Source: a virus
Virus record (IMG/VR): IMGVR_UViG_3300042455_002571
Location: 1 to 23,697 of that record
DNA: 23,697 nt
Direction: 5' to 3' (one strand)
In this document: one piece after another, positions 2,354 to 23,697 of the stretch
Numbering within the stretch: position 1 is the first letter of the stretch
Layout: the number at the start of each line of letters is the position of its first letter
Made by a program: the position numbers and the translations under genes
Notes under the pieces: generated by a model
Seen by the model: the letters and a program-made list of their open reading frames with translations, nothing else
Databases searched by the model: none
What the model was told of the DNA's origin: nothing

Positions 2354-5300
2354 GTGGACGAACAAAAAATCAATGACCTAATTTACGAGATTCAAATTCT
2401 TGTCAGTACTCTCAGTAAAGGCAGCACAGCCACTAGCAGTAGCACCACCACCACCAGCAACAAAGGGATGACCGACAAGAGTGCTACTCAATTGATTGCG
2501 GCGCTGGGAGTCTTGGCTTCTAAATTAGGCGGTGCTGCTCGTAATCGCAAAGAAGAAATTCGAGCAGCTAACGATTTTGCCAACAGTGTAACAGTTGCTG
2601 CCAATCGCGCAGAAAAAGCAGCAGAAAAGCAAGCAAAAAAATCAGAAGATTTTGCCAACGCTGCTGCTGCAAATGCAGAGCAGCTTAGACGTGCTAGTTT
2701 GTCTGCAAAACAAATAGCACAAGACCAAGCCAATGCTAATAAACAATCAATAGTAGAAGCAAATAGATTAAAAAACGCAACCGACAATCTCAAACGGGGC
2801 ATGGACGACGCCTATAAATCCATTGCTAGTTTAGTAGCAAACACTCAAGCATCTACTCATGACTATGCATCTGCTATGTCAAGCGCAGCTACACCAGTAT
2901 TAAAATTTGCTTCTCTAATGGGTGGCCCAGTTACCAAAGGCTTGAGTTTTTTTGGCCAAGCATTAATTCAATGGGGAGTAGCAGCAGCCAAGCAAGCTGA
3001 TCAACAATTTAAGGCATTTGATCGATTAGCTAAAGTTGGCGGTAGCAGTATTGGGAGTCTCCGAGAGCTATACGAGCTGACTAAATCTTTTAACTACACA
3101 TCAAACGAATTAGATAAACTTGGTGATGTTTTAGTTGCAAATAGTGACAACATTGCATTGCTTGGCAAAGGATTCACTGATGGCAGCAAAGGCATTGGCA
3201 AAGTTATGTCCCAGTTTAGTGCTGGCGCAGATTCTTTTAGAGAACAATTTCGTGCGCTAGGCATGGCCTATGAATCACAAAACGAAGCTTTGATGGGATA
3301 TGCTGCCAACGAAGCCAGGCTGGGCCGAGCACGTCAATTACAAGATAAAAATGCTGGTGCAACATTTGCTGAATATTTAAAAAATGTTGAAGCTATTACC
3401 AGGCTAACTGGTGCCGATCGTGCAAAACAAGAAGCTGCGCAGGCTAAAACACTAGCTAAAGAGCAGTTCAGAGTCAGATTAGAACAAGCCAAGGCCCCAG
3501 GCGGCGATCCAAAAGAACTTGCAAGATTAACTAAAATCCAAGAAGCAATTACATTGGCTAGCGCATCTGGTGCAGAAGACGTGGCAGATCAGCTTCGTGC
3601 CTTAGCCGGCGGATTTATAGGAGCCAAAGGCGGCGAAGGTATTACACAACTGCTGGGCGGCGAAGCGTCGGCAATGCTGGACAGTTTAGACGAAAACACA
3701 GACGCTTTGGCGTTTGTTAAAAACTTGCTTGCAAAAACTACTCAAGCTCAAATTGGTGCTTTTGGAACACTAGGGCGTGTCGGCGGGCTGGAATCCCAGA
3801 CTGGTATTGGTGTAGGACAAACAGCTGACGCAGCCGCACGCCTCGGCGACGAAAAGACTCTTGCAGCAATAAGAGCAAAAATTGAAGAACAACTCAGGTC
3901 ACCTGATCCCATACTCAGAACAAAAGCTGAGACAGACAAAGCTACTTTAGAAAAAGGTCAGAATCTTCAAGATTTTATTCAAGTAGCAATTCCTGCTGCA
4001 ACCACGGCTACTAATATATTTGCTCGGGCATTATCAAACGCAACTGAATTTCTTGCAACTAAAAAAGATTCAGCACTAACAAAATCGTCCGACGATGCCA
4101 ACTATAAAGCCATGGGATTAATAGACAAGAGTTTTTCTCTTGTGGCACGCGGCTTAGAAAATGTTGCTGATATAGTTGGGTTAGACTATGTGGCTAGTCA
4201 AGCCCGGGGTAACCGTATTGAAAACGAAGGAAGATATTTTAAAGATTTAGTTTCAAGAAAATCTAAAGCTGCCCAAGAAGCAGGAGTTGAATCTGGGCTA
4301 ACTCAAGAGCAAATTGCAGCAGCCGCAGCTCGATCAGTAATAGAAAACGCACCAAAATACGCCACTGGCGGTATTGCTTCGGGCCCTGGTAGTGGACACT
4401 TGGCCATGCTGCACGGTACAGAAGCTGTTATACCTTTAGCCGGTGGTGGCATACCCGTAAAATTGTCCGGTGGCGGTGGTATAGAGTCAGGCCCGGTGTT
4501 CAATCCACAAACAGAAACCAATTTCTTATTGGAAAAAAACAACGAAGAACTGGTCAAGGCCAACGTGACGCTGAGTCAAATGCTGGAAGCTATAACTGGC
4601 GGCGCTACAGTAACCGGAGGCGGCGGCGGTGGTGGTGGAACCTCCGAAAAAGTTGCTCAAGAAGCATTAGCCGAACATGATCATGCACACCCGCATGAAC
4701 CTGCTGCTGCTGCAGATCCTGAACTGGCTAAACAGATTGGCAAGATTGTAATGCCACTGGAAAAGATGAATGTAACCAGCGGCTTTGGTAATCGCACAAT
4801 GGATGGCAAAGTGCAAGGACACGGTGCCATCGATCTAGCAGGCAAAATTGGTGACAAGGTCATGGCACCAATATCGGGCATAGCCAGAGTATTGAGCGAA
4901 AAAGAATCTGGTGGCTACGGCAACATGGTTGAAGTCACTGATGAGAAAACAGGTGTCAAGCACATGCTGGCTCACCTGGACAAGAGCATGGTCAAGACTG
5001 GTGAAGTGATCAAGGCTGGCCAACAGATCGGCACCTTGGGCAACACAGGCAAAAGCACAGGGGCTCACCTGCATCACGAAATGCGGGATAAATTTGGCAA
5101 AAAAATAGATCCTACCCAGTTTTATTCAGGTCCTGGATTTGGATCAACAGCAGGCGGAGCTGCTACTGGAAACCCCAACATTGCCAGACAAGGTCGAAGA
5201 GCAGGAGCAACTCAGTACCCTGCTGCACCTGATATGATGTCAGGCGAACTTGGCAAAATGTCTGAGAAATACGAAACCGGCGGTCGCGGAAGTGGAACAG

Positions 5301-6298
5301 TAGGTTGGGACAAAGTAGGCGGCACCAGCTACGGAAAATATCAAATAGCATCCAAAGTGGGTGCCATGAAAGACTTTCTCAAGTTTGCAGAACAGTCAGG
5401 TCGCGGCGATGTTGCTAAGAAATTACGAGATGCAGGCGCAGAATCCGATACAGGCGGAACCAGTGGTAAATCAGTGGACGTTTGGAAACAAATGGCTGCC
5501 AGCGGCGAACTAGGTGATCTAGAATCTCAGTTTATTAAACAAAAAAGTTTTGATCCAGCAATGGCTGGTCTCAAAGACAATGACCTCAGAAAGAGAATTG
5601 AAGGCAACAAAGCCCTTAAAGAAATGATGTTTAGCACCAGTGTGCAGCACGGCGGTGGCGGTGCTGCTGGCATCATGAACAAAGTCTACAAAAAAGGCAT
5701 GAGTGACGAAGACCTCATCAAGGCAACTTATGCAGAACGTGGCACCAGATTTGGCGGCAGCACCGCCGAAGTACAAAAAAGTGTTAAAAATAGATTTGTA
5801 AGCGAAGAAAAAGATGTAATGGCCATGTTGGGCATGCCAGCCGGTAACGGTGTTCCGGGGGCAGCCCCAGGCGCACCAATGGTTGCAGGTGCACAATCTG
5901 GTCCTAGAACCACAGGTTCCTTGAGATCAGCCCTGGGATTACCCGAAGGTAGCGCAGGTGCAGGTGCAGGTACAGGTGGATTGATGGGCATGTTGGGCGG
6001 CATGTTGGGTCTGGGAGGATCAACTACAGGACAAGCTGGAATCACGGCCGGTGGAGCTCCTGGCGCAATTGGATCTGATATCTCGGCTATCACACAGGCT
6101 ATGGAAGCACAAACAGCAGCAACACAAACAGCTATTACGTCAGGCATGGAAAATCTCACAACACAATTGGTAGATAAACTGGGAGGTGCCGGTGGCACCA
6201 ATGATCCTGCAGTGCCAACCTTGTTGGGAGAAATATTGGCTGCACAACGCGATCAAACCACAGCTATCAACAAACTAATTCAAGTTAGTACTGCGTAA
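2354..6298 (+). CDS. Tail tape-measure protein with M23 peptidase and lysozyme/chitosanase-like domains
   Basis: A 1314-residue protein starting at GTG; the only in-frame codon run upstream is cut by a TAG at 2342-2344. Residues 50-160 are Ala/Lys/Glu-rich coiled coil, and a hydrophobic stretch lies near 180-215. About residues 668-697 read ATGGIASGPGSG then HGTEAVIPL, a motif common in tape-measure proteins. A Gly8 run and a His-rich stretch (EHDHAHPHE, about 773-781) lead into an M23/LytM-like metallopeptidase with H823xxxD827, a central HLDK and H905-L-H907. After a linker, KYETGGRGSG (E974 a candidate acid) and TSYGKYQIASK open a domain resembling the lysozyme/chitosanase-type hydrolases of tail and VgrG proteins. 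The C-terminus is Gly/Ala-rich with short amphipathic helices. It likely sets tail length and digests peptidoglycan during entry. T4 gp29 is 590 residues and has neither enzyme domain. Confidence 0.82.
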   Translation: MDEQKINDLIYEIQILVSTLSKGSTATSSSTTTTSNKGMTDKSATQLIAALGVLASKLGGAARNRKEEIRAANDFANSVTVAANRAEKAAEKQAKKSEDFANAAAANAEQLRRASLSAKQIAQDQANANKQSIVEANRLKNATDNLKRGMDDAYKSIASLVANTQASTHDYASAMSSAATPVLKFASLMGGPVTKGLSFFGQALIQWGVAAAKQADQQFKAFDRLAKVGGSSIGSLRELYELTKSFNYTSNELDKLGDVLVANSDNIALLGKGFTDGSKGIGKVMSQFSAGADSFREQFRALGMAYESQNEALMGYAANEARLGRARQLQDKNAGATFAEYLKNVEAITRLTGADRAKQEAAQAKTLAKEQFRVRLEQAKAPGGDPKELARLTKIQEAITLASASGAEDVADQLRALAGGFIGAKGGEGITQLLGGEASAMLDSLDENTDALAFVKNLLAKTTQAQIGAFGTLGRVGGLESQTGIGVGQTADAAARLGDEKTLAAIRAKIEEQLRSPDPILRTKAETDKATLEKGQNLQDFIQVAIPAATTATNIFARALSNATEFLATKKDSALTKSSDDANYKAMGLIDKSFSLVARGLENVADIVGLDYVASQARGNRIENEGRYFKDLVSRKSKAAQEAGVESGLTQEQIAAAAARSVIENAPKYATGGIASGPGSGHLAMLHGTEAVIPLAGGGIPVKLSGGGGIESGPVFNPQTETNFLLEKNNEELVKANVTLSQMLEAITGGATVTGGGGGGGGTSEKVAQEALAEHDHAHPHEPAAAADPELAKQIGKIVMPLEKMNVTSGFGNRTMDGKVQGHGAIDLAGKIGDKVMAPISGIARVLSEKESGGYGNMVEVTDEKTGVKHMLAHLDKSMVKTGEVIKAGQQIGTLGNTGKSTGAHLHHEMRDKFGKKIDPTQFYSGPGFGSTAGGAATGNPNIARQGRRAGATQYPAAPDMMSGELGKMSEKYETGGRGSGTVGWDKVGGTSYGKYQIASKVGAMKDFLKFAEQSGRGDVAKKLRDAGAESDTGGTSGKSVDVWKQMAASGELGDLESQFIKQKSFDPAMAGLKDNDLRKRIEGNKALKEMMFSTSVQHGGGGAAGIMNKVYKKGMSDEDLIKATYAERGTRFGGSTAEVQKSVKNRFVSEEKDVMAMLGMPAGNGVPGAAPGAPMVAGAQSGPRTTGSLRSALGLPEGSAGAGAGTGGLMGMLGGMLGLGGSTTGQAGITAGGAPGAIGSDISAITQAMEAQTAATQTAITSGMENLTTQLVDKLGGAGGTNDPAVPTLLGEILAAQRDQTTAINKLIQVSTA

Positions 6299-6334: not shown

Positions 6335-8146
6335 ATGGCAGACTCGCAAAAAAACAGTAAAGGCGGCTGGCGCAAGTACTTCAAAGTAGCCAACGTAGGC
6401 GGAGAACTCAGTCCTCTCAGCGGCAAAGGTTCTGATGGCTTGCCTGGATACGGGCGTCAAGATGGACGTGATCCCTTGCGCGGCCATGCTGATGTGGTTT
6501 ATCGCAACTATGCAAGTCGTTTGCCCGAAGTGTATTCTGGTCACCCAAATCGTATCGAACGTTATAATCAATACGAAAACATGGACAGTGACAGTGAAAT
6601 CAATGCTTGTCTGGACATTTTGGCAGAGTTTTGTACTCAAACCACCAACGGCGAAGCAGTACCGTTTCAAGTAAACTATTCTGACAAGCCCACAGCCCAC
6701 GAAATTGAAATTATTAAAAAACAATTGCAGCAATGGGTCAAGTTGAATAAACTGGATCAACGCCTGTTTCGTATTTTCCGCAACACACTCAAGTACGGAG
6801 ATCAAGTGTTTGTGCGTGATCCTGAAACATTTGAAATGTACTGGGTTGACATGACCAAAGTTGCTCGAGTGATCGTAAACGAAAGCGAAGGCAAACAGCC
6901 TGAGCAGTATGTGATTCGTGACATCAATCCCAACTTTCAAAATTTAAGCATTGCTGTAAAAACTACCACTGATTTTCAATCTACACCACCGTCGGGTGCG
7001 TATGTAGCACCTTTCAACTATACAGCACCCAACGCCGGTGCTGGCGGCCAAGGCAGCGGCGGCAGTAGATTTTCAGCAGCCATGAACGAAACTGTAGTAG
7101 ATGCTAAACACGTGATTCATCTAGGACTAAGCGAAGGTTTAGACTTTTACTGGCCGTTTAGTATGAGTGTGTTGGAAACAATTTACCGAGTGTTCAAGCA
7201 GAAAGAACTGCTGGAAGATGCAGTGTTGATTTATCGTGTGAGTCGTGCACCTGAACGTAGAATTTTTAAAATTGACGTAGGCAACATGCCCAGTCACATG
7301 GCTATGGCCTTTGTGGAACGTGTCAAAAACGAAATACATCAGCGCAGAATTCCCAGTCACACCGGTGGCAGCAGCGGTCAAAACATTATGGACAGCAGCT
7401 ATAATCCACTCAGCATCAACGAAGACTATTACTTTCCACAAACTGCAGATGGCCGAGGTAGCAGTGTTGAAACCTTGCCAGGCGGTAGTAATCTAGGCGA
7501 GATTGATGACTTAAAGTATTTCAACAACAAGATGTGCCGTGGTTTGCGTGTGCCCAGTAGTTATTTGCCAACTGGGCCTGACGATTCAGATCGCCCTATG
7601 AATGACGGACGAGTAGGAACTGCATTAATTCAAGAGTATCGTTTTAATCAGTATTGCGAACGTTTACAACGACTAATCATCAACAAACTAGATGACGAAT
7701 TCAAGATGTTTATGCGCTGGAGAGGCTTTAACATAGACAGCAGTCTGTTTAGCATTGCATTTAATCCACCGCAGAACTTTGCCAGCTATAGAGAAGCAGA
7801 ACTGGACACCACCCGTGTTTCTACGTTCCAAGCTCTAGAGCAAATTCCTTATATGAGCAAGCGTTTCTTGCTCAAACGTTACTTAGGGTTAACCGAAGAA
7901 GAAATTCAGGAAAACGAAACGTTATGGAATGAAGAAAGAACAGATGCTGAGTTGCCACCCACTAGTGGTCAGGATCTGCGTGGTGTTGGAGTGACCCCAG
8001 CTGACTTCGAGGCTGATATTACCACCGGTGAAGAAATGAATACCATGGGTGCTCCAGGATCAGAAGCAACTGGTGGTGCTCCTGCACCAGGAAGTCAGCC
8101 AGGAGCAGCAGTGGCTCCCGGTGCAACAACTCCAGCTCCGGGCTAA
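6335..8146 (+). CDS. 20: Portal protein, T4 gp20 family
   Basis: A 603-residue portal vertex protein, somewhat longer than T4 gp20 (524 aa). It would form the dodecameric ring that starts head assembly, passes DNA and docks the tail. Family blocks in order: YENMDSDSEINACLDILAEF (about residues 76-95), LFRIFRNTLKYGDQVFVRD, YWVDMTKVARV, VIHLGLSEGLDFYWPFSMS, then YRVSRAPERRIFKIDVGNMP and the MCRGLRVPSSYLPTGPDD region. A Gly-rich insert lies near residue 230 and a Pro/Ala/Gly-rich tail covers about the last 30 residues. It starts the capsid module 36 nt after the tape-measure stop; only a weak GGA precedes the ATG, with no clear Shine-Dalgarno. A portal next to the tape measure differs from the T4 order, where the tube gene (19) precedes gene 20. 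Confidence 0.93.
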   Translation: MADSQKNSKGGWRKYFKVANVGGELSPLSGKGSDGLPGYGRQDGRDPLRGHADVVYRNYASRLPEVYSGHPNRIERYNQYENMDSDSEINACLDILAEFCTQTTNGEAVPFQVNYSDKPTAHEIEIIKKQLQQWVKLNKLDQRLFRIFRNTLKYGDQVFVRDPETFEMYWVDMTKVARVIVNESEGKQPEQYVIRDINPNFQNLSIAVKTTTDFQSTPPSGAYVAPFNYTAPNAGAGGQGSGGSRFSAAMNETVVDAKHVIHLGLSEGLDFYWPFSMSVLETIYRVFKQKELLEDAVLIYRVSRAPERRIFKIDVGNMPSHMAMAFVERVKNEIHQRRIPSHTGGSSGQNIMDSSYNPLSINEDYYFPQTADGRGSSVETLPGGSNLGEIDDLKYFNNKMCRGLRVPSSYLPTGPDDSDRPMNDGRVGTALIQEYRFNQYCERLQRLIINKLDDEFKMFMRWRGFNIDSSLFSIAFNPPQNFASYREAELDTTRVSTFQALEQIPYMSKRFLLKRYLGLTEEEIQENETLWNEERTDAELPPTSGQDLRGVGVTPADFEADITTGEEMNTMGAPGSEATGGAPAPGSQPGAAVAPGATTPAPG

Positions 8147-9265: not shown

Positions 9266-9889
9266 ATGGCTCTTTACCTTAGAGAAAACTTGACTTTCGA
9301 CGCTGCCCGCATGGTTGTGGAAGGCGCCGAAGGCAAGGATCTTTACATGAAAGGTATTTGCATTCAAGGTGGTGTCAAAAACGCCAATGAGCGTGTGTAC
9401 CCAGTGAGCGAAATTGAGCGAGCTGTTGGTACCCTTATGGAACAGATCAAGGCTGGCAGTTCAGTTCTAGGCGAACTGGATCACCCAGATGATTTAAAAA
9501 TTAACTTGGACCGCGTTTGTATCAACATGATAGAAATGTGGATGGACGGGCCCAACGGTTTTGGCAAAATGAAAATATTGCCAACACCCATGGGAAATCT
9601 CGTCCGCACACTGCTGGAAAGCGGTGTGAAATTGGGAGTTTCGAGCCGAGGTAGCGGTAACGTTAACGAAGCGAACGGACATGTCAGTGACTTTGAAATA
9701 GTCACTGTGGATGTGGTTGCCCAACCATCAGCGCCTAATGCTTATCCAAAAGCCATCTACGAAGGCTTGTTGAATATGCGCCACGGGCATCGCCTGCTAG
9801 AAATGTCACGCGAAGCTGGGTCGGACAACAAGGTACAGAGATTTTTGAAAGAGGAATTAAAACGCCTTATCAAAGATCTCAAAATCTAG
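9266..9889 (+). CDS. 21: Prohead maturation protease, T4 gp21 family
   Basis: A 207-residue serine protease of the gp21 family. Visible family features are GGVKNANERVYP (about residues 35-46), GELDHPDD with the probable catalytic His73, GVSSRGSG with the probable catalytic Ser127, and the DFEIVTVDVVAQPSAPNAYP block. It would be packed in the core, activate itself, and cut scaffold, core and capsid precursors. T4 gp21 cuts after Glu in (Leu/Ile)-x-Glu contexts, relevant to the VAE motifs of the protein at 14863-16626. AAGGA precedes the ATG by about 8 nt, and only 12 nt separate it from the core gene. The gene is complete and shows no missing motif. Confidence 0.92.
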   Translation: MALYLRENLTFDAARMVVEGAEGKDLYMKGICIQGGVKNANERVYPVSEIERAVGTLMEQIKAGSSVLGELDHPDDLKINLDRVCINMIEMWMDGPNGFGKMKILPTPMGNLVRTLLESGVKLGVSSRGSGNVNEANGHVSDFEIVTVDVVAQPSAPNAYPKAIYEGLLNMRHGHRLLEMSREAGSDNKVQRFLKEELKRLIKDLKI

Positions 9890-9898
9890 GAGAAATAG

Positions 9899-10987
9899 AT
9901 GTTTGATGCTATTAAACCACTGCTAGATAGCGGACTCATTAACGAGGACGTGGGACAAGAACTCAACGAAGCTTGGGAATCTAAACTCACAGAAGCTCGC
10001 GAACAGTTACGTGCAGAACTCCGCGAAGAGTTTGCACAACGCTACGAGCATGACAAGACAGTAATGGTTGAAGCCCTAGATCGCATGGTAACAGAAGGTC
10101 TTGCACAAGAGATCCAAGGCATTGCTGCTGAAAAGCAACAACTAGCCGAAGATCGTGTCAAGTTCCAAGCCAAAATGAAAGAAAGTTCTGTAAAGTTCAA
10201 CGACTTTATGGTTTCCAAATTGGCTGAAGAAATTGGCGAACTGCGCAAAGACCGCCGTGTTCACACCGAAGGTTTCCAGAAATTGGAACGCTTTGTTGTT
10301 GAAGCACTGGCCCAAGAAATCATGGAATTCCAACAAGACAAGCGTGATGTCGTAGAGACAAAAGTGCGTCTGGTTCGTGAAGCCCGTGGTAAATTGGAAG
10401 CTCTCAAGGCTAGATTCGTTACAGAATCTGCTGCCAAAATGAGCCGCGCTGTTGCTGGGCATCTTAAAGCTGAAATGAGTCAGTTGCACGAAGACATCAA
10501 GGTTGCTCGCGAGAACAATTTTGGACGTCGTATTTTTGAAGCGTATGCTGCAGAGTTTGGTTCAACATATCTCAACGAGAATGCTGAAATTCGAAAACTC
10601 AGCCGTGTAGTTGCTCACAAAAATCAGCAACTGGAAGAAGCAACACGAGTCGTCGAGGCAAAACAACGCCTGGTCGATTCCAAAGAGAAAGAAATTCGTA
10701 TTATCAAGGAATCCACACAGCGCGAAAGCACCATGGAAGAATTGCTTGCACCTCTCAACGAAGAGAAGCAGGAAGTAATGCGCAATTTGTTAGAAAGCGT
10801 TCAAACAAGTCGTTTGAAAGGCGCTTTCGAGAAGTATCTACCAGCTGTGCTGAACGATGCAAGCAGCAAGAACCGCAAGGTCATTGCTGAAAGTGTTCGC
10901 GAAGTAACTGGTGATAAAACCGTCAAGGCCGCAAAAGAAGAAGACCGTTCCAACGTGATCGACATCAAGCGCCTGGCAGGTCTTTAA
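9899..10987 (+). CDS. 22: Prohead scaffold protein, T4 gp22 family
   Basis: A 362-residue, charged and almost wholly helical protein located between the protease and capsid genes, as gene 22 is in T4. The N-terminus MFDAIKPLLDSGLINEDVGQ resembles gp22-type scaffolds. Residues 25-290 are rich in Glu, Lys, Arg, Gln and Ala and predict long coiled coils. The C-terminal part (about 275-335) includes TMEELLAPLNEEKQEVMRNL and LKGAFEKYLPAVLN, a compact helical segment seen in this family, then a basic end. It would form the major internal core around which the capsid protein assembles and be digested afterwards. The Shine-Dalgarno AGGAG precedes the ATG, 9 nt after the protease stop. Confidence 0.88.
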   Translation: MFDAIKPLLDSGLINEDVGQELNEAWESKLTEAREQLRAELREEFAQRYEHDKTVMVEALDRMVTEGLAQEIQGIAAEKQQLAEDRVKFQAKMKESSVKFNDFMVSKLAEEIGELRKDRRVHTEGFQKLERFVVEALAQEIMEFQQDKRDVVETKVRLVREARGKLEALKARFVTESAAKMSRAVAGHLKAEMSQLHEDIKVARENNFGRRIFEAYAAEFGSTYLNENAEIRKLSRVVAHKNQQLEEATRVVEAKQRLVDSKEKEIRIIKESTQRESTMEELLAPLNEEKQEVMRNLLESVQTSRLKGAFEKYLPAVLNDASSKNRKVIAESVREVTGDKTVKAAKEEDRSNVIDIKRLAGL

Positions 10988-11002: not shown

Positions 11003-12220
11003 ATGTCACAAGAACTGTTAGAAAGCCGTTGGGACGAGACCAAAGAAGCCCTTATGGAAGGCCTCAAAGGTAGCCGTCGTAACACAATGGGCGTTATCTT
11101 AGAAAACACCCGCAAGTACCTAAAAGAAAACGCAAGTGCAGGTTCAACTGTATCAGGCAACATCGCCACACTAAACCGTGTGATTCTGCCTGTTATCCGT
11201 CGAGTCATGCCAACTGTTATCGCTAACGAGTTGGTTGGCGTTCAGCCAATGACTGGTCCTGTTGGCCAAATTCACACATTGCGTGTGCGTTATGCCAGCA
11301 CAATGACAGACCAAACAGCAGCAGCAACATCAGTTGTAGCTGGTGAAGAAGCACTGTCACCTTTCAAGATCGCTGTTGCTTACTCAGCAGGCGCTCGTGG
11401 TGCTGACAACGCTGCAACAACACAAACTGCTGCACAAGGTTATTCTGGTGCACAGACAGCAACACTTGAAGGCAATGGCGGACGTCAAATCTCTGTACAG
11501 ATCCTCAAGCAAGCTGTTGAAGCTAAAACACGTAAGCTACAAGCTCGTTGGACTTTTGAAGCTGCTCAAGACGCACAAGCAATGCATGGTATCGACGTAG
11601 AAGCCGAAATCATGGCAGCTTTGGCTCAAGAAATTACAGCTGAAATTGACCAAGAGATCCTGTTGAGCCTGCGTTCGTTGGCCACAACTGAGTTTACATA
11701 CAACCAAGCTACTGTTTCTGGTACTGCTACATTCGTTGGTGACGAACATGCTGCTCTAGCTGTTCTGATCAACCGTGTTGCTAACCTGATCGCACAACGC
11801 ACACGTCGTGGTGCAGGTAACTGGGCTGTTGTGTCACCTGCTAGCTTGACTGTTCTTCAGTCAGCAACAACATCAGCATTTGCACGTACCACAGAAGGTA
11901 CATTCGAAGCACCTACAAACACCAAGTTTGTTGGTACATTGAACGGCGCAATGCGTGTGTTCGTTGACAGCTACGCTAGTGATAGCACACCTGTGTTAGT
12001 TGGTTATAAGGGTTCGAGCGAAGCTGATGCAGCAGCGTTCTATTGCCCATATATCCCCCTAATGAGCAGCGGTGTTGTTCTGGATCCGTCAACATTCGAA
12101 CCAGTCGTAAGCTTTATGACGAGATACGGATATATCGAATTGACAAACACAGCATCAAGCTTCGGCAATGCTGGAGATTATGTCGGCGAGATAGCCGTTT
12201 CGAATTTGAGCTTCAGCTAA
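11003..12220 (+). CDS. 23: Major capsid protein, T4 gp23 family
   Basis: A 405-residue HK97-fold capsid protein; T4 gp23 is 521 residues, so insertions such as the insertion domain are probably reduced. Diagnostic blocks are VIRRVMPTVIANELVGVQPM (residues 64-83), the TGPVGQIHTLRVRY stretch, KLQARWTFEAAQDAQAMHGI, then EIDQEIL and GNWAVVSP. The N-terminal helical segment up to about residue 45 looks like the removable propeptide; L40-K41-E42|N43 fits the gp21 (Leu/Ile)-x-Glu rule, and L17-M18-E19|G20 is another candidate. A strong Shine-Dalgarno (GAGGAG) lies before the ATG. Alanine, threonine and valine richness and even codon use fit a highly expressed gene. It ends the capsid operon before a strong terminator. 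Confidence 0.95.
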   Translation: MSQELLESRWDETKEALMEGLKGSRRNTMGVILENTRKYLKENASAGSTVSGNIATLNRVILPVIRRVMPTVIANELVGVQPMTGPVGQIHTLRVRYASTMTDQTAAATSVVAGEEALSPFKIAVAYSAGARGADNAATTQTAAQGYSGAQTATLEGNGGRQISVQILKQAVEAKTRKLQARWTFEAAQDAQAMHGIDVEAEIMAALAQEITAEIDQEILLSLRSLATTEFTYNQATVSGTATFVGDEHAALAVLINRVANLIAQRTRRGAGNWAVVSPASLTVLQSATTSAFARTTEGTFEAPTNTKFVGTLNGAMRVFVDSYASDSTPVLVGYKGSSEADAAAFYCPYIPLMSSGVVLDPSTFEPVVSFMTRYGYIELTNTASSFGNAGDYVGEIAVSNLSFS

Positions 12221-12315: not shown

Positions 12316-13056
12316 ATGAACAAATACGAAAAATGGTATAATCAAATCACTGTTCGCGGTCAAACCCGTGTCACAGATCAACGTACAGAATCGCACCACA
12401 TTATACCTAAATGCTTAGGTGGCAGTGACGATGCTAGTAATCTAACCAATATCACATTACGAGAACATTTTATATGTCATTGGTTGCTGACAAAAATACA
12501 TCAAGGTAAGCACCGTCATCAGCTACTTAAAGCATTATGGATGATGAGAGCCGAGAATCAAAATCAAAAACGATACAATACTAAAATAACATCAAGAGTA
12601 TATGCCACTCTCAAAGAAGAATATAGCATGTTGCAAAGTCAAAGAGTAACAGGTGAAAACAATCCTATGTGGGGGAAAACACAAAGTGAAAAAGCTCGAG
12701 CACTAATTAGCCAAAAGAATACAGGGAAAAAGTTAACAGAAGAACAAATAGCAAAACAAATAGCTGCTCAGACTGGCCGTAAGAGAAAAACATTTTCAGA
12801 TGAATGGCTTGATAATATGTCAAAGAATCATAAAAGTAAACAGCCAGATTTTGATGGATCGTTAAAGGAAGAAACTAAGAAAAAAATTGGCGACAAGATT
12901 CGAGGACGCAAGCAAACAGATGAAGAAAAAGCAAGGCGCAGTGCTGCAAACTTGGGAAAAGTTAGACTTAAAAAACTGTGCCCACATTGCGATCAACAGA
13001 TAGCTGTAAACACCTATCCCAGATTCCACGGAGACCTTTGCCGCCACCGTACATAA
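12316..13056 (+). CDS. HNH homing endonuclease with NUMOD3 repeats and zinc-ribbon tail
   Basis: A 246-residue free-standing endonuclease. The HNH core is ESHHIIPKCLGG (His27/His28) followed by DDASNLTNITLREHF (Asn42, His51) and His55. Residues 113-160 hold a NUMOD3-like segment, GENNPMWGKTQSEKARAL then TGKKLTEEQIAKQI, and a second Lys/Arg-rich copy around 183-215 (GDKIRGRKQTDEEKARRSA). The C-terminus has C222xxC225 and H238/C242/H244, a likely small zinc module for DNA binding. The gene is AT-richer than its neighbours and sits in a terminator-bounded gap between capsid and fibre genes, consistent with lateral insertion. It shares the NUMOD3 architecture with the GIY-YIG gene at the left edge. 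The capsid gene is intact, so it is probably intergenic and not intron-borne. Confidence 0.92.
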   Translation: MNKYEKWYNQITVRGQTRVTDQRTESHHIIPKCLGGSDDASNLTNITLREHFICHWLLTKIHQGKHRHQLLKALWMMRAENQNQKRYNTKITSRVYATLKEEYSMLQSQRVTGENNPMWGKTQSEKARALISQKNTGKKLTEEQIAKQIAAQTGRKRKTFSDEWLDNMSKNHKSKQPDFDGSLKEETKKKIGDKIRGRKQTDEEKARRSAANLGKVRLKKLCPHCDQQIAVNTYPRFHGDLCRHRT

Positions 13057-14166: not shown

Positions 14167-14814
14167 ATGAAAATCAATCAAATTGTCAACGAGGAAAGTC
14201 ACATAGATCCAGATATCATTGCTGCTCTCAAGAAAAAAGGTTACAAACCAAAAGGTCGTGGGGATGATGCAGTTGCATTTGTAGAACCCGGCACAGGACA
14301 AATTCTCAAAATATTTGGAACTGGCGACGGAGCAGATGTTACAAAAAAAGCTGGCCAGCAACAGACCAATTTTAATGAACATCAAAAGATGGCAATTTAC
14401 TGGGCCAAGTATTGCGCCGCAAATTCTGGTAATAAATTTCTACCAAAGTTTTCAGGGATTGAGAGCTTTCATTGGGGCAGTGCTGTGTATCTACAGATTC
14501 GTCAAGAAAGATTATATGACTTGGAAAAAGATCAAAAAAGAACGATAGAATCCATGGCCATGCAGGCCCGGCGCAAAGTTCCGTTTGACACCATGGATCA
14601 AAAGTACACCAATAATCATTATGCTGACACCAGAGCAGCATGGAAACAAATAAAAGACAAAATAGACAACAAAGATCTCAGATTGTTCTATCAGACCATG
14701 ATAGATATTGCCAATATCGGGGATCAAAAAAACTGGGCCTACGATCTTCACGGTGACAACATAATGATGCGTCGAGATGGCACACCAGTTATACTTGATC
14801 CCTGGGCTCTGTAA
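14167..14814 (+). CDS. Kinase-fold protein (protein kinase/aminoglycoside phosphotransferase-like)
   Basis: A 215-residue protein. ILKIF (K48) could be the ATP-binding lysine strand, YLQIRQERL (residues 108-116) fits a hinge, and D193-LHGD-N198 has the Asp-x4-Asn catalytic-loop spacing of the kinase clan (compare HRDLKPEN). I210-L-D211-PW supplies the Asp of the DFG-like position. The protein then ends at once, so the kinase C-lobe helices after DFG are missing: it is a minimal or degenerate fold. A glycine loop is not obvious; GRGDDAVAFV (30-39) may take its place. It sits among virion genes under its own late-promoter box, so it may be packaged or act late. Substrate is unknown, and catalytic activity is inferred only from the conserved Lys, Asp, Asn and Asp. 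Confidence 0.65.
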   Translation: MKINQIVNEESHIDPDIIAALKKKGYKPKGRGDDAVAFVEPGTGQILKIFGTGDGADVTKKAGQQQTNFNEHQKMAIYWAKYCAANSGNKFLPKFSGIESFHWGSAVYLQIRQERLYDLEKDQKRTIESMAMQARRKVPFDTMDQKYTNNHYADTRAAWKQIKDKIDNKDLRLFYQTMIDIANIGDQKNWAYDLHGDNIMMRRDGTPVILDPWAL

Positions 14815-14862: not shown

Positions 14863-16626
14863 ATGACTATCAAACCTGTGCTAGTGCCCGACCATAACGC
14901 AGCTGACCTGCGTGACCTAATGAACCGATTCAGCACAGCAGCCCAATCAGCCACGCCGGCTGCACAAGCCAACCGAATAAGACAACAGCTAACTGAAAGC
15001 GCAGAACCGGGTGTGGCGGAAGCTCGTCCAGATGTCATGCGACATCGGGGTGATAAGACTGTGAAAATAGTCAAACGTGCGGGTAAACCCATTGGCGAGA
15101 TTGGTACGGATGCAGAAGCCAGTCCCGGCAATGGTCAGTACTATGTCAAACTGTACGACGGCAGCTACGATGCTGTGGGATACGACACAGCTGAAGAAGC
15201 CTTAGCAGAATTAAAGGCAGCCATTAAACAAGGTGTGGCGGAAGGTGGGCGTCTGGACATGAGCAGCCCAGAAGAGAAAGCAGCCCGTAAAGCATACATC
15301 AAGGCACACGGACATCCCCCACCGCTGACTCCAGACAGCGTGGTGGCCAAATATAACCCTGAGAATGATAAAAAAGTCAGAGACTATTATCTCAGAAGAA
15401 AAGGAATTCCACAAGACAAGCTGGACAAGATGAAGGAAGATGGTGTGGCTGAAGGCGAAAAGCCAGAGTATCAAAAACTATTAAAACAAATAAAACAAAA
15501 CGCTAAGAATGACCCAAATAGAATTCCTAGAGGTTATGAACTGACTGACCACGGCATGCTAGTAAAAAAACATAAGACCGAAAAGTCAAACGATGGTGTA
15601 GGCGGATTAGGGGAAGGCATGGTGGAAGGGACATTTCAAGATGATGGCAAGATGGATTGGAATGCATGGAAACAGAAAGCAAAAAAACACGGTGCAGTAA
15701 AGTTTACTGATACTGATAATAAGACTATTGCTTATGATAAAGATGGCAAAGTAGTCAGTTCTATAACCTGGTCGCAAAAGAAGTCAGGTATGGCGGAAGC
15801 AACTGGTGACACATCATTTGATTCAATGATGGGAAACATAGTCAAAGGTGCTAGATACAAGGGTGCCGCAGCTGATCAACGTGCCGATGCAGCATACAGT
15901 GGCATGATGAACAATATTACTAAAAATGCTGCTGATGTTGCAAAACCATCTGCTGACTCTAAGTTTGAACAAGTGTATAGCGCAGTAGAGAGAATACTTT
16001 TATCTAATAATGTTCATTGGGATATAGATGACGACATTTCGGACGCTCTTAAAAAGTTAAAAATCAAAGCATCGGACGCTCTCATGCAAAAACTTGAGAG
16101 AGAACTTATTAATCGTGTATCGGATGCGCTACAATATTATGATGATGGTGATTTAGCAGAGTCAGGTGTGGCGGAAGGATCAGAAAACAATCCAGTGGTC
16201 AATGCCATCACACGCAGAATTATGATGCAACGTTCAGACTTGTTGAGCAAGTACGGTCCAGAAAAGGTTGGGCAAGCTGTCGATGAAGTTGCTGACTTTG
16301 TGGGCAATGTGGAAGAAATTGGATCCAGCGATGTATCAGGTTGGGTTCGTCATGTGGAACAAATGTTGGGCAACATGGAGCAAGATGTAGCAGAAGAAGC
16401 AGCAGCGCCAACATTCAAGCCCGGAGATCGTGTGATGTATGCTGGTAAATTTGCCACTGTTGTTGCACAAGATGGTGATGCGTATGGTATTCGTGTTGAC
16501 GCACAACCAGGAACAATGAAGGTTCTGGCTAGCCAAATCAAGAAACCCAGCTACGACGAAAGTGTTGCCGAGTCAATTGACCCTATAGAACAGCTTCGTG
16601 CAGATATTCGACGTTTTGCACTGTAA
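14863..16626 (+). CDS. Modular protein punctuated by VAE|G/A motifs, candidate internal head polyprotein
   Basis: A 587-residue hydrophilic protein with no overall family match that I recognise. Short unrelated modules are separated by a recurring motif: GVAE53|A, GVAE127|G, GVAE197|G, GMVE255|G, GMAE312|A, LAE433|S, GVAE438|G, DVAE511|E and SVAE570|S. These resemble the gp21-type rule of cutting after Glu with a hydrophobic residue at P3 and a small residue at P1'. Modules include an alpha/beta piece (about 55-122), basic helical pieces (130-240), a lysine-rich beta piece (257-306), a helical piece (315-430), a helical piece (441-505) and a KOW/SH3-like piece (515-560, FKPGDRVMYAGKFATVVAQ). 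The C-terminus is DPIEQLRADIRRFAL. The AAGGA Shine-Dalgarno supports the start, and a terminator follows. I infer a capsid-packaged precursor that the prohead protease would cut into several internal proteins. Confidence 0.6.
   Translation: MTIKPVLVPDHNAADLRDLMNRFSTAAQSATPAAQANRIRQQLTESAEPGVAEARPDVMRHRGDKTVKIVKRAGKPIGEIGTDAEASPGNGQYYVKLYDGSYDAVGYDTAEEALAELKAAIKQGVAEGGRLDMSSPEEKAARKAYIKAHGHPPPLTPDSVVAKYNPENDKKVRDYYLRRKGIPQDKLDKMKEDGVAEGEKPEYQKLLKQIKQNAKNDPNRIPRGYELTDHGMLVKKHKTEKSNDGVGGLGEGMVEGTFQDDGKMDWNAWKQKAKKHGAVKFTDTDNKTIAYDKDGKVVSSITWSQKKSGMAEATGDTSFDSMMGNIVKGARYKGAAADQRADAAYSGMMNNITKNAADVAKPSADSKFEQVYSAVERILLSNNVHWDIDDDISDALKKLKIKASDALMQKLERELINRVSDALQYYDDGDLAESGVAEGSENNPVVNAITRRIMMQRSDLLSKYGPEKVGQAVDEVADFVGNVEEIGSSDVSGWVRHVEQMLGNMEQDVAEEAAAPTFKPGDRVMYAGKFATVVAQDGDAYGIRVDAQPGTMKVLASQIKKPSYDESVAESIDPIEQLRADIRRFAL
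15010..16177 (+). repeat. Dispersed 13-nt linker repeat (GGTGTGGCGGAAG) between modules
   Basis: Exact or near-exact copies lie at 15010-15022, 15232-15244, 15442-15454, 15616-15628, 15787-15799 and 16165-16177, all in the same frame. The modules between them are unrelated. Codon choice is kept in the copies, with GTG GCG GAA used repeatedly. Confidence 0.75.
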
Positions 16627-21378: not shown

Positions 21379-23697
21379 TGGCTAAACTGTTATCAAACCG
21401 AGTCCAAACAACTCCACCCGCTGATGCTGAACCAGATCGCACAGACTGGCTGGCACCGCAGGATGCAGAACCCAACTTAGGTGTTCCTGGAGCCAGCGGG
21501 CAAATTTTAGCATCGGGTGCTGATGGTTCTCGTTACTGGGTAGATCCAGGCGCAGGTGCAACTGGACCACAGGGCCCACAAGGACCGCGTGGACCACAAG
21601 GTCCCACAGGATCAACAGGTGCAACTGGACTCACTGGAGCAACAGGGTTTGAAGGGGCAACAGGATTTAGTGGGGCAACAGGATTCGAGGGGGCAACTGG
21701 AGCAACAGGATTTGAGGGGGCAACTGGATTCAGTGGTGCTACCGGACTAAATGGTTCTACTGGTGCAACCGGAACGGGTGGTGCCACCGGCGCCACCGGA
21801 CTTCAAGGTGCAACTGGAATAGCTGGTTCAAATGGACTCGACGGAGCCACCGGAATTACCGGGGCAACTGGTGATATTGGCCAAACTGGAGCTACTGGGT
21901 TAGATGGAGCTACCGGAGCAGGTGCCACTGGAGCTACTGGGTTAGATGGAGCAACTGGAGCAGGCGCCACTGGCGCCACCGGTCCACAAGGCCCACAAGG
22001 CCCAGCAGGCTCAGGAGCTACTGGTTTTGATGGAGCTACAGGTGCAACTGGAGCAGGTGCCACAGGTGCCACAGGACCACAAGGACCACGCGGGCCACAA
22101 GGAGTAAATGGATTTGTTGGAACTACTGGAGCTACAGGATCAGAAGGACCACAAGGACCCACTGGACCCACAGGACCACAAGGACCCACAGGACCCACAG
22201 GACCACAAGGACCTGCTGGAACTTCTGTGACCATTATCGGATCAGTACCTGATGTTAATGTAGTACCACCTGGTAATCCTCAGACCACACTAAATGCTGC
22301 TTTTCCTGGTGCAATAGCCGGGAATGGTGTTATTGATACAGCCACTGGTAATTTATGGGTATACGACGGAGCTCTTTGGGAAAATGTGGGTCAAATCACA
22401 GGTCCGCAAGGAGCTACTGGTGTTAACGGTCTTACAGGTGCAACTGGCCTAACTGGTACTACTGGACTAGAAGGATCAACGGGCCCACAAGGACCACGCG
22501 GTCCTCAGGGATTCTTCGGATCTACCGGACCAGATGGAGCCACTGGAGCTACTGGTTTTGATGGATCTACAGGTGCAACTGGAGCAGGTGCCACTGGTGC
22601 TACAGGACCACAAGGACCACAAGGACCAGCAGGTGCAGGTAGTACAGTACCGGGACCACAAGGACCACAAGGACCACAAGGACCCATTGGACCGCAAGGA
22701 CCCACAGGACCCATCGGACCCATTGGACCACAAGGACCACGTGGACCACAAGGACCACAAGGACCACAAGGACCACAAGGACCCATTGGACCACAAGGAC
22801 CACAAGGACCCATTGGACTAACAGGTGCAGGTGCTACCGGAGCAACCGGACCACAAGGACCACAAGGATCAGAAGGACCACAAGGACCCACAGGACCACA
22901 AGGACCACGTGGACCACAAGGACCCATTGGGTTAACTGGACCACAAGGACCCACAGGACCGCAAGGACCCACAGGACCACAAGGACCACAAGGACCACAA
23001 GGACCACAAGGTTCTACAGGCTCAGGAGCTACTGGAGCAACAGGACCACAAGGACCACGCGGACCACAAGGTGAAGGTGCTACCGGAGCAACTGGACCAC
23101 AAGGACCACAAGGACCACAAGGACCCATTGGACTAACAGGTGCAGGTGCCACTGGAGCAACAGGACCACAAGGACCACAAGGACCACGTGGACCACAAGG
23201 TGAAGGTGCCACCGGAGCAACAGGACCACAAGGACCACAAGGACCCATTGGACCAACAGGTGCAGGAGCCACTGGAGCAACAGGACCACAAGGACCACAA
23301 GGACCACAAGGTTCTACAGGTGCAGGAGCCACTGGAGCAACAGGACCACAAGGACCACAAGGACCACAAGGACCCATTGGCCCAACAGGTGCAGGAGCTA
23401 CCGGAGCAACTGGTTTAACAGGATCCACTGGACCACGTGGACCACAAGGACCACAAGGACCCATTGGACCCATTGGACCACAAGGACCACAAGGACCAAC
23501 AGGTGCAGGAGCCACTGGAGCAACAGGACCACAGGGACCGCAAGGACCACAAGGACCACAAGGTGCAGGTAGTACAGTACCAGGACCACAAGGACCACAA
23601 GGACCACAAGGACCCATTGGACCACAAGGACCACAAGGACCAACAGGTGCAGGAGCCACTGGAGCAACAGGACCACAGGGACCGCAAGGACCGCAAG
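21378..23697 (+). CDS. Collagen-like fibre protein, 3' end outside the window
   Basis: An ORF of at least 773 codons starts at the ATG that overlaps the preceding stop (TAATG) and stays open to the right edge. Residues 1-55 are non-repetitive ([20 protein letters not shown]... then [17 protein letters not shown]), the usual head of phage collagen-like fibres. From about residue 58 the protein is Gly-x-y repeat, first rich in GAT and GFEG/GLDG units, later almost pure GPQ, GPR, GPT and GPI. The collagen run is interrupted at about residues 282-341 by a globular module ([20 protein letters not shown], then [15 protein letters not shown]), which looks like the small beta domain common in such fibres. 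Trimeric collagen triple helix is expected. The mutation-prone GGACCACAA repeats could change fibre length. Confidence 0.88.
21547..23697 (+). repeat. Collagen-coding 9-nt repeat tract (GGACCACAA and variants)
   Basis: Gly codon phase is kept throughout, with GGACCACAA as the dominant nonamer in the second half and larger blocks of roughly 100-120 nt that recur with few changes, including a GGTGCAGGTAGTACAGTACC block near 22633 and 23563. The interruption at 22221-22400 is non-repetitive. Confidence 0.85.

Follow-up and report, generated by a model that had tools for sequence, protein, structure and literature searches.

Is a phage protein that carries the same short, Glu-containing motif again and again cut into pieces at these motifs, and if so, what would the pieces be? 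This question is raised by a 587-amino acid (aa) open reading frame (ORF) at positions 14863-16626 of the virus record IMGVR_UViG_3300042455_002571, whose 23,697 bases (hereafter the window) contain the head gene cluster of a T4-related myovirus. A sequence-only reading of this ORF had proposed a polyprotein that is processed by the prohead protease into several internal head proteins. Our analysis supports this proposal in part: it shows swappable, self-contained modules and a gp21-type site pattern between them, whereas packaging into the head, cutting and delivery are steps that we infer. In sum, the 587-aa protein is probably a cargo polyprotein of the prohead core that is cut by a gp21-type protease.

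In the mechanism we propose, conserved N- and C-terminal caps, presumed to act as targeting and docking peptides, would bring the polyprotein into the prohead, where the gp21-type protease would cut after Glu at hydrophobic-x-E seams. About seven small domains of 6-14 kDa would be freed by cutting, stay among the packaged DNA and reach the host together with it. The cargo list evolves by cassette exchange: modules enter, leave or pass from one phage to another, always in frame and with the seams as joints. Full-length copies of the gene with 100% identity are present in six contigs, including record G001 (160,607 bases), and partial copies in two more. Its parts are as follows, with slashes marking proposed cuts, L numbers denoting loci and pLDDT standing for the predicted local distance difference test:

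14863-15021, + strand: N-terminal cap, aa 1-53, a predicted helical segment that includes LTE45/S and GVAE53/A
15010-15021, + strand: seam GVAE53, spelled GGTGTGGCGGAA
15022-15243, + strand: module A, aa 54-127, beta-rich and ending in a helix; 10-residue blocks of its body have pLDDT values of 54-82
15232-15243, + strand: seam GVAE127, spelled GGTGTGGCGGAA
15244-15453, + strand: module B, aa 128-197, helical and basic; 90-95% aa identity in L014, L017 and L027
15442-15453, + strand: seam GVAE197, spelled GGTGTGGCTGAA
15454-15627, + strand: module C, aa 198-255, basic
15616-15627, + strand: drifted seam GMVE255, where the DNA homology of module D to L017 starts
15628-15798, + strand: module D, aa 256-312, alpha plus beta, basic; pLDDT of blocks 72-88
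15787-15798, + strand: seam GMAE312, spelled GGTATGGCGGAA, where the D/L017 homology ends and the E/L037 homology starts
15799-16176, + strand: module E, aa 313-438, acidic, with a low-confidence helical prediction and an internal DLAE433
16150-16161, + strand: candidate extra site DLAE433 within module E, kept in L037
16165-16176, + strand: seam GVAE438, spelled GGTGTGGCGGAA
16177-16395, + strand: module F, aa 439-511, acidic and helical; 79% aa identity in L019
16384-16395, + strand: seam DVAE511, in a low-confidence stretch separating helical F from barrel G
16396-16572, + strand: module G, aa 512-570, a predicted SH3-like small barrel
16561-16572, + strand: seam SVAE570, in a low-confidence stretch ahead of the C-terminal cap helix
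16573-16623, + strand: C-terminal cap, aa 571-587, SIDPIEQLRADIRRFAL, a predicted helix

All nine glutamates that had been listed as VAE-type sites are in place, but the literal VAE is found at six of them only, the others being MVE255, MAE312 and LAE433. In context, the sites read GVAE/A (E53), GVAE/G (E127, E197 and E438), GMVE/G (E255), GMAE/A (E312), DLAE/S (E433), DVAE/E (E511) and SVAE/S (E570). Two hydrophobic-x-E-small sites, LTE45/S and LGE251/G, can be added to this list. Chance is ruled out as the origin of the motif by 20,000 protein shuffles, none of which reached the observed six VAE (mean 0.33) or four GVAE (mean 0.03), while the ten occurrences of the looser [ILVM]xE[GASTN] (mean 2.67) were reached in three. 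The motif is also concentrated at this gene: across 160,000 of the 160,607 bases of G001 and 163 mechanically listed ORFs, 7 of the 17 tight motifs fall in the 587-aa ORF and the next best ORFs have two each.

The segments between the sites are separate, interchangeable modules, and the seams are breakpoints of homology. As had been claimed, the modules do not resemble each other; blastp matches between them at E<=1 cover just 8-12 residues, with a best E of 0.05. A structural repeat inside one fold, the refuting condition set beforehand, is ruled out, since the modules are dissimilar and recur with other neighbours. The punctuated layout recurs in related phages: a search of 2.9 million virus contigs returned 22 loci, many of which match one site-bounded stretch, and modules recur in other combinations and with other neighbours. 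Module A forms a cluster of nine segments in eight proteins (the 587-aa protein included) with six different right-hand neighbours. It is found in L018, L020, L021, L022, L123 and L125, and part of it exists as a short ORF of its own in L024 and L025, preceded there by MIE/S and by QIE/G, respectively, the latter being outside the site pattern. The relatives of module B in L014, L017 and L027 have other flanks, as do those of module E in L037 (90% aa and 93.3% DNA identity; the same gene as L012) and L013 (90% aa identity). Module D recurs in L017 with 95% aa and 96.7% DNA identity, the DNA homology ending at both seams, and has a doubtful further match in L066 (E 0.002). Weaker relatives of module F are found in L053, L059 and L074, and module G has a relative of 65% aa identity in L130 and a weaker one in L021. 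For module C, no relatives were found besides the identical copies of the same gene. Searches of phage records with tblastn gave no match to the 587-aa protein (50,697 records) or to the L018 polyprotein. For a related polyprotein, L015:6771-10058 (module FSAKYPG...DDLE), tblastn matched 124 phage records; the best 40 of the 124 all fall within the same segment of roughly 40 aa (residues 377-431 of the query), and the matches listed are mostly hypothetical proteins from cyanophages, pelagiphages and roseophages whose records are about 40 kb long.

Exchange at the seams can be seen directly in the DNA. Eleven ungapped comparisons were made of the 60 bases inside and outside a seam. For module D and L017, the two ends match at 60/60 and 60/60 bases inside and at 17/60 and 14/60 outside, which is chance level. 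The same drop is seen for E and L037 (56/60 and 56/60 inside; 14/60 and 21/60 outside), B and L027 (52/60 and 56/60; 28/60 and 10/60), B and L017 (53/60 and 54/60; 18/60 and 16/60), A and L021 (45/60 and 42/60; 21/60 and 15/60) and F and L019 (37/60; 20/60). Among 38 motif-rich proteins chosen from 335 relatives, 32.7% of the 226 ends of BLAST matches of at least 60% identity lie within 5 aa of a site, compared to 9.2% in the null and a maximum of 16.8% in 1,000 circular shifts. More broadly, 84 non-redundant ORFs with at least three sites yield 268 segments in 203 sequence clusters, a set that includes 120 loci from a scan with an 18-mer of the seam and is hence partly seam-selected. Of these clusters, 165 are singletons and 38 occur in two or more proteins; different right-hand neighbours are present in 18 of the 20 clusters for which at least two could be observed.

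Orthologues of the gene show the same caps around other cargo. This is true even beside gp23 genes of 97.8-98.8% identity (L021, L122 and L125); in a further orthologue, L124, the adjoining gp23 is only 85% identical. The N-terminal cap M(T/S)IKPVLVPD... is common to L021, L122/L123, L124 and L125, and in the four distinct orthologues L021, L122, L124 and L125 it carries L(T/V/N)ES and is followed by differing modules, making it a candidate head-targeting propeptide. The C-terminal cap DP(I/V)EQLRADI(R/L)RF is kept wherever the end of an orthologue is present (L021, L122 and L125; the ORF runs off the contig in L124 and L123). Most modules between the caps differ, module A being common to L021, L122/L123 and L125. 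By eye, unrelated polyproteins (e.g. L020, L067, L069 and L276) end in a similar amphipathic stretch, ES..L..IKRL/KKL..L, which is perhaps a docking helix.

No Pfam family over the cut-off and no PHROG at E<=0.1 was found on the 587-aa protein. The sequence-only reading had considered DNA-binding peptides among the cargo; as a general description this does not hold, since only B, C and D are basic (isoelectric point, pI, of about 9), the other four modules, A, E, F and G, being neutral or acidic (pI 4.5-5.8; range over all modules 4.5-9.3). The whole-protein structure model has a predicted template modelling score of 0.24, with 393 of 587 residues below pLDDT 50. E53, E127, E197 and E255 fall in low-confidence stretches, which is weak evidence because two thirds of the model is of low confidence. 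Models were built from alignments A5 and A6 (A1, A2, A3 and A4 were dropped, being partly misaligned by MAFFT), and the low A5 confidence of the caps and of modules C, E, F and G says little because these are without relatives in that alignment. For A and for D, the prediction is a small alpha/beta unit. Modelled separately, F is helical and G, again without a relative in the alignment, comes out as an SH3-like barrel; confidence is low near E511 (506-514) and near E570 (564-578). In Foldseek, G compares with PWWP, KOW and Tudor barrels at E of about 7e-3 and with none at 1e-3; its best VIA Z of 7.2 is below 8 and within the range of common arrangements. None of 478 Foldseek matches of the whole model reached E<=0.001. 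By analogy to T4 IPI and Alt, our guess is that the modules may be counter-defence or host-takeover factors.

The enzyme proposed to cut the seams is encoded by the same phage. As the sequence-only reading had pointed out, a gp21-type protease gene lies about 5 kb upstream (4,974 bp) of the 587-aa ORF, among other genes of the T4-type head:

6335-8146: portal, from profile matches
9266-9889, + strand: gp21-type prohead protease, the proposed processing enzyme (Peptidase_S77, E 6e-27; phrog_207, E 3e-56)
9899-10987, + strand: protein that takes the gp22 (scaffold) position; its hydrophobic-x-E-small sites number 16 where 3.4 are expected
11003-12220, + strand: gp23, from profile matches
14167-14814, + strand: kinase-like neighbour with a T7 gp0.7-type profile (phrog_15752, E 1.6e-8)

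T4 gp21 cuts after L/I-x-E, and does so repeatedly in core proteins (PMC9026906). The protein at 9899-10987, for which position suggests a scaffold role and whose sole good match is phrog_10922, a family of unknown function, has V, L, I and M at the P3 of its sites. To follow the seams through divergence, module boundaries were projected onto copies at 35-90% identity, with queries bounded by motifs and targets not chosen by motif. Glu at P1 is the best-kept position (53% of the 299 boundaries at the right-hand end of a module and 56% of the 332 at the left-hand end), and 55% of the boundaries at the right-hand end have V, M or I at P3. Drifted seam forms include GVTE, DVAE, SVTE, GITE and ILSE; these keep the protease pattern, which is more than a mere linker would need. 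Moreover, a widespread module, KATxxRLDPKCWKGKK, also stands directly after N-termini that resemble a capsid targeting sequence (CTS), i.e. MKINEILSE, MKSNEFITE and MRITEIITE (L063, L055 and L057).

Conservation of the seam extends to its DNA, a feature that the earlier reader could not see and that gives the seam a further role, in evolution. GVAE is spelled GGT-GTG-GCG-GAA (GGTGTGGCGGAA) at 32 of 48 distinct places in ORFs with at least three sites, whereas the product of codon frequencies predicts about 0.3%; in ORFs with two sites and one site, the same spelling occurs at 5/10 and 1/12 places, respectively. The loci behind the 32/48 were found by peptide patterns and not by the DNA word, and the count includes whole-genome tiles and other ORF rules; the narrower peptide-found count is 32/46. 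A larger tally, 282 of 387 exact spellings (80 of the 120 18-mer loci), is biased by the scan and was not used. GCG makes up 87% of the Ala codons at seams, compared to 5% in the remainder of these proteins and 4% across G001, where it is the rarest Ala codon. An 18-mer, CAAGGTGTGGCGGAAGGC, is present in at least 120 stretches of virus contigs, with 153 of its 154 occurrences there lying in the GVAE frame of the longest ORF, and the exact 12-mer is present in 15 of 16 large records with related polyproteins, picked by size. Across 134 sites, conservation outside the 18-mer is at most 0.3 bits per base, except for 0.5 at base -5. Unrelated junctions mostly share all 12 bases, whereas module copies at homologous places differ at 3-30%. 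On our reading, the 12 common bases mark a seam that takes part in recombination or is copied; its DNA would drift afterwards while the protease pattern is kept. Pausing at rare codons on domain borders might account for GTG-GCG, given the rarity of GCG in this phage, yet GGT and GAA are common codons, so that the data agree better with a single fixed word than with a rule based on rare codons. We tentatively suggest, as a possibility short of an expectation, that the seam is dual-coded: CAAGGTGTGGCGGAAGGC, a word of 12-18 bp, would be kept across many uncultivated phages both as a prohead-protease site and as an in-frame recombination seam, and the head polyprotein would be an open cassette array whose cargo modules are loaded and exchanged between phages.

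Virion data from other phages bear on the question of packaging. Mass spectrometry (MS) of virions of the cultured phage S-CREM2 lists gp137 (four unique peptides), gp160 (seven), a kinase and a cytidylyltransferase (PMC10665884). The L012 polyprotein, which also contains module E of the 587-aa protein, shares 50% identity over 86 aa with gp137, which ends in DUF6321 (E 3.5e-10), and a CWxxY module with gp160 (47% over 30 aa, E 1e-4). Judging from these matches, two module types of related polyproteins are present in proteins listed in the S-CREM2 virion. The phage with the 587-aa protein also encodes a second polyprotein, of 930 aa (G001:122919-125711; L047:2919-5711), with more drifted sites such as DVAEA, VEEG and VDEA; its gene stands in a row upstream of the terminase, with T4-CTS-like N-termini MKTFAQYLTE/S, MKKLADYIAE/S and MRAREFV...ITE/T. 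In Pseudomonas phage PA5oct, the row gp284, gp283, gp282, gp281 and terminase gp280 matches G001 genes at 121343, 121789, 122308 and 130577, and gp281, annotated with electrospray ionization tandem MS, is in the slot where our phage has the 930-aa polyprotein. PA5oct gp281 and the 587-aa protein match doubtfully at best (21%, E 0.005).

Several results weigh against a cargo polyprotein cut by gp21. The T4-literal [LI]xE is not enriched in the 587-aa protein (5 versus 3.84 in shuffles). While the hydrophobic-x-Glu logic attributed to the sites in the sequence-only reading is kept through divergence, P3 as read from the sequences is mostly V or M, with Val prevailing, unlike the Leu/Ile of T4. 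Only about half of the projected boundaries keep hydrophobic-x-Glu at all (139/299 right-hand and 175/332 left-hand). The N-terminal cap up to its first site has 45 residues, which is long beside the 10 that are enough to target T4 IPIII (PMC9026906). At 5,358 match ends in the 335-protein family, a motif-agnostic count favours hydrophobic-x-E-small just 2.0-fold, close to hydrophobic-x-E-acidic (1.8) and other x-x-E-acidic (1.7) and far below unrelated repeated peptides, and is thus much weaker than the test on 38-39 motif-rich proteins. Among the 16 large records, nine have a T4 portal, eight of these together with gp21 and gp23 (in the ninth, the portal reaches the contig end), and in the other seven no portal, gp21 or gp23 was found. 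These seven may be fragments or other phages and hence provide no test of the link between polyprotein and protease. In the eight records without gp21, PF03420 gave nothing at E<=10, and phrog_207 was unmatched, as it was in the controls, leaving absence unproven. The authors of the S-CREM2 study caution about co-purification (PMC10665884). The stretch of G001 from the gp282 relative to the terminase contains nine ORFs, of which the 930-aa polyprotein is the first, and PA5oct gp281 has no blastp match to this polyprotein. Finally, CTS-like N-termini and MS detection are not significantly associated in PA5oct (9/14 versus 27/74, Fisher p=0.075; 88 proteins, a regular expression and hand-copied coordinates, with gp338-341, gp348 and gp255 left out beforehand as very short or cut).

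Which other explanations could account for the same data? The protein might stay uncut, with VAE serving as flexible linkers of a structural protein or of an effector of the polyvalent type discussed below, and modules being shuffled wherever linkers are tolerant. Indeed, shuffling is independent of the fate of the protein, and cutting of S-CREM2 gp137 cannot be judged at an MS coverage of 4.1%. Linkers would drift freely, however, and here the P1 Glu is best kept and a hydrophobic P3 persists as other positions change; in addition, one module follows both internal seams and CTS-like N-termini that end in hydrophobic-x-Glu. We therefore regard an uncut protein as unlikely. It is also quite improbable that the protein is a disposable core filler akin to T4 gp22, gp67 and gp68, chopped by gp21 to make room for DNA as the pieces leave. 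In T4, core proteins of this kind are cut several times and largely eliminated (PMC9026906), and the 16 sites of the gp22-position protein fit this picture. The pieces here are nevertheless exchangeable modules, and A, D, F and G are each predicted to form a small fold of their own; constant caps around variable cargo are unlike a conserved scaffold, and the two related module types were detected in proteins of S-CREM2 virions.

The remaining alternative takes the seam as a DNA recombination element only, or as the site of an unknown nuclease or recombinase, with GVAE devoid of proteolytic meaning. Both the fixed spelling of GVAE by GGTGTGGCGGAA and the exchange of modules at the seam seen in DNA speak for it. 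Against it, the exact 18-mer keeps to the GVAE frame in all but one occurrence, and seams with drifted DNA still keep hydrophobic-x-Glu, so that we consider this explanation very unlikely. A polyprotein cut by the gp21-type protease remains the preferred reading.

Further observations concern the surroundings of the gene. The best-ranked gp23 relatives from named phages, at about 66% identity, are those of Vibrio phage 2.275.O, the PA5oct group (Pseudomonas) and Phosso (Sinorhizobium). A homing endonuclease (12316-13056, + strand; phrog_655, E 5e-45, NUMOD3) adjoins gp23 in the window, and a Hef-like endonuclease is annotated directly after gp23 in PA5oct. After its probable cut, LKE/NASAGSTVSGNIATL, gp23 looks like the start of small CTS-like proteins such as MKIKDILE/SATAGATSSGNIATV (seen among L149, L166, L168 and L169), and phrog_17311 matches both the gp23 of the window (E 0.0015) and PA5oct gp281 (E 2e-4). 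A post-cut sequence common to gp23 and these small proteins would flag further gp21 substrates. The kinase-like protein at 14167-14814 starts with MKINQIVNE/E, which seems to resemble a CTS, and is possibly packaged into the head as well. Two other ORFs of the window can be described as follows:

2354-6298, + strand: putative tape measure, a 1,314-aa protein that contains a Peptidase_M23 domain and, at its C-terminus, a VgrG3-like domain
22505-23659, - strand: 384-aa GPCGPCGP ORF, an antisense artefact of a collagen-like (Gly-x-y) + strand frame that extends past the window end

How does the polyprotein relate to known systems? It would best be explained, by analogy, as working like T4 internal proteins strung in series. 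IPI, IPII, IPIII and Alt combine N-terminal targeting, a gp21-type cut after hydrophobic-x-Glu and variable cargo behind a constant targeting part (PMC9026906, PMC3012670), all of which the 587-aa protein would share. Each T4 internal protein, however, carries a single cargo, from which a short N-terminal propeptide is removed (in Alt, this has 7 residues and a C-terminal propeptide is removed as well; PMC9026906, PMC3012670), whereas the 587-aa protein lines up about seven cargo units, each set off from the next by a site. Because T4-type internal proteins are single-cargo and small and basic, and this one has at least seven further seams, 587 aa and a pI of 5.7, it is not filed among them. 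T4 gp22, gp67 and gp68 receive several gp21 cuts per protein (PMC9026906), as the 587-aa protein would, but there the cuts mostly dismantle the scaffold and the pieces leave, in contrast to the exchangeable, unrelated modules described here. Polyvalent proteins of phages and conjugative elements likewise combine many unrelated domains in one delivered polypeptide, and their authors draw the analogy to polyproteins and propose release by peptidase domains (PMC5512222). The 587-aa protein shares the unrelated domains, which recur separately; unlike polyvalent proteins with their embedded peptidase domains, it consists of short modules in which profile searches found no peptidase or known effector domain, and its sites would fit a separate prohead protease. 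In SPN3US, the prohead protease cuts head proteins after Glu, several times per protein; of 14 mapped cuts, 13 take off an N-terminal propeptide and the remaining one a C-terminal propeptide, and no row of cargo domains is described in the available part of the paper (PMC10052503). Domain mosaicism of phage proteins is similar in that domains recombine between proteins (PMC10684548); the terms prohead, protease and polyprotein are absent from the main text of that paper, and no punctuating cleavage motif was seen in it. On the dual-coded reading of the seam, integron cassettes would be alike in exchange, which here would concern domains of a single polypeptide. Among the papers listed, and going by titles and the openings of abstracts, with most subscription journals outside the scope, no paper describing such a polyprotein was found, nor any on GVAEG in phages or on DUF6321.

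Packaged phage proteins have, to our knowledge, seldom been explored for counter-defence and host-takeover factors, and many of them are hard to spot, being small and unrelated to each other. If the seam marks cargo, one short DNA word would lead to many small candidate domains with exact ends, the scale being illustrated by the 203 sequence clusters among 268 segments in this set alone. If the proposed processing is true, tailed phages would gain a polyprotein strategy that uses the head protease itself, along with a concrete mechanism for the exchange of single domains.

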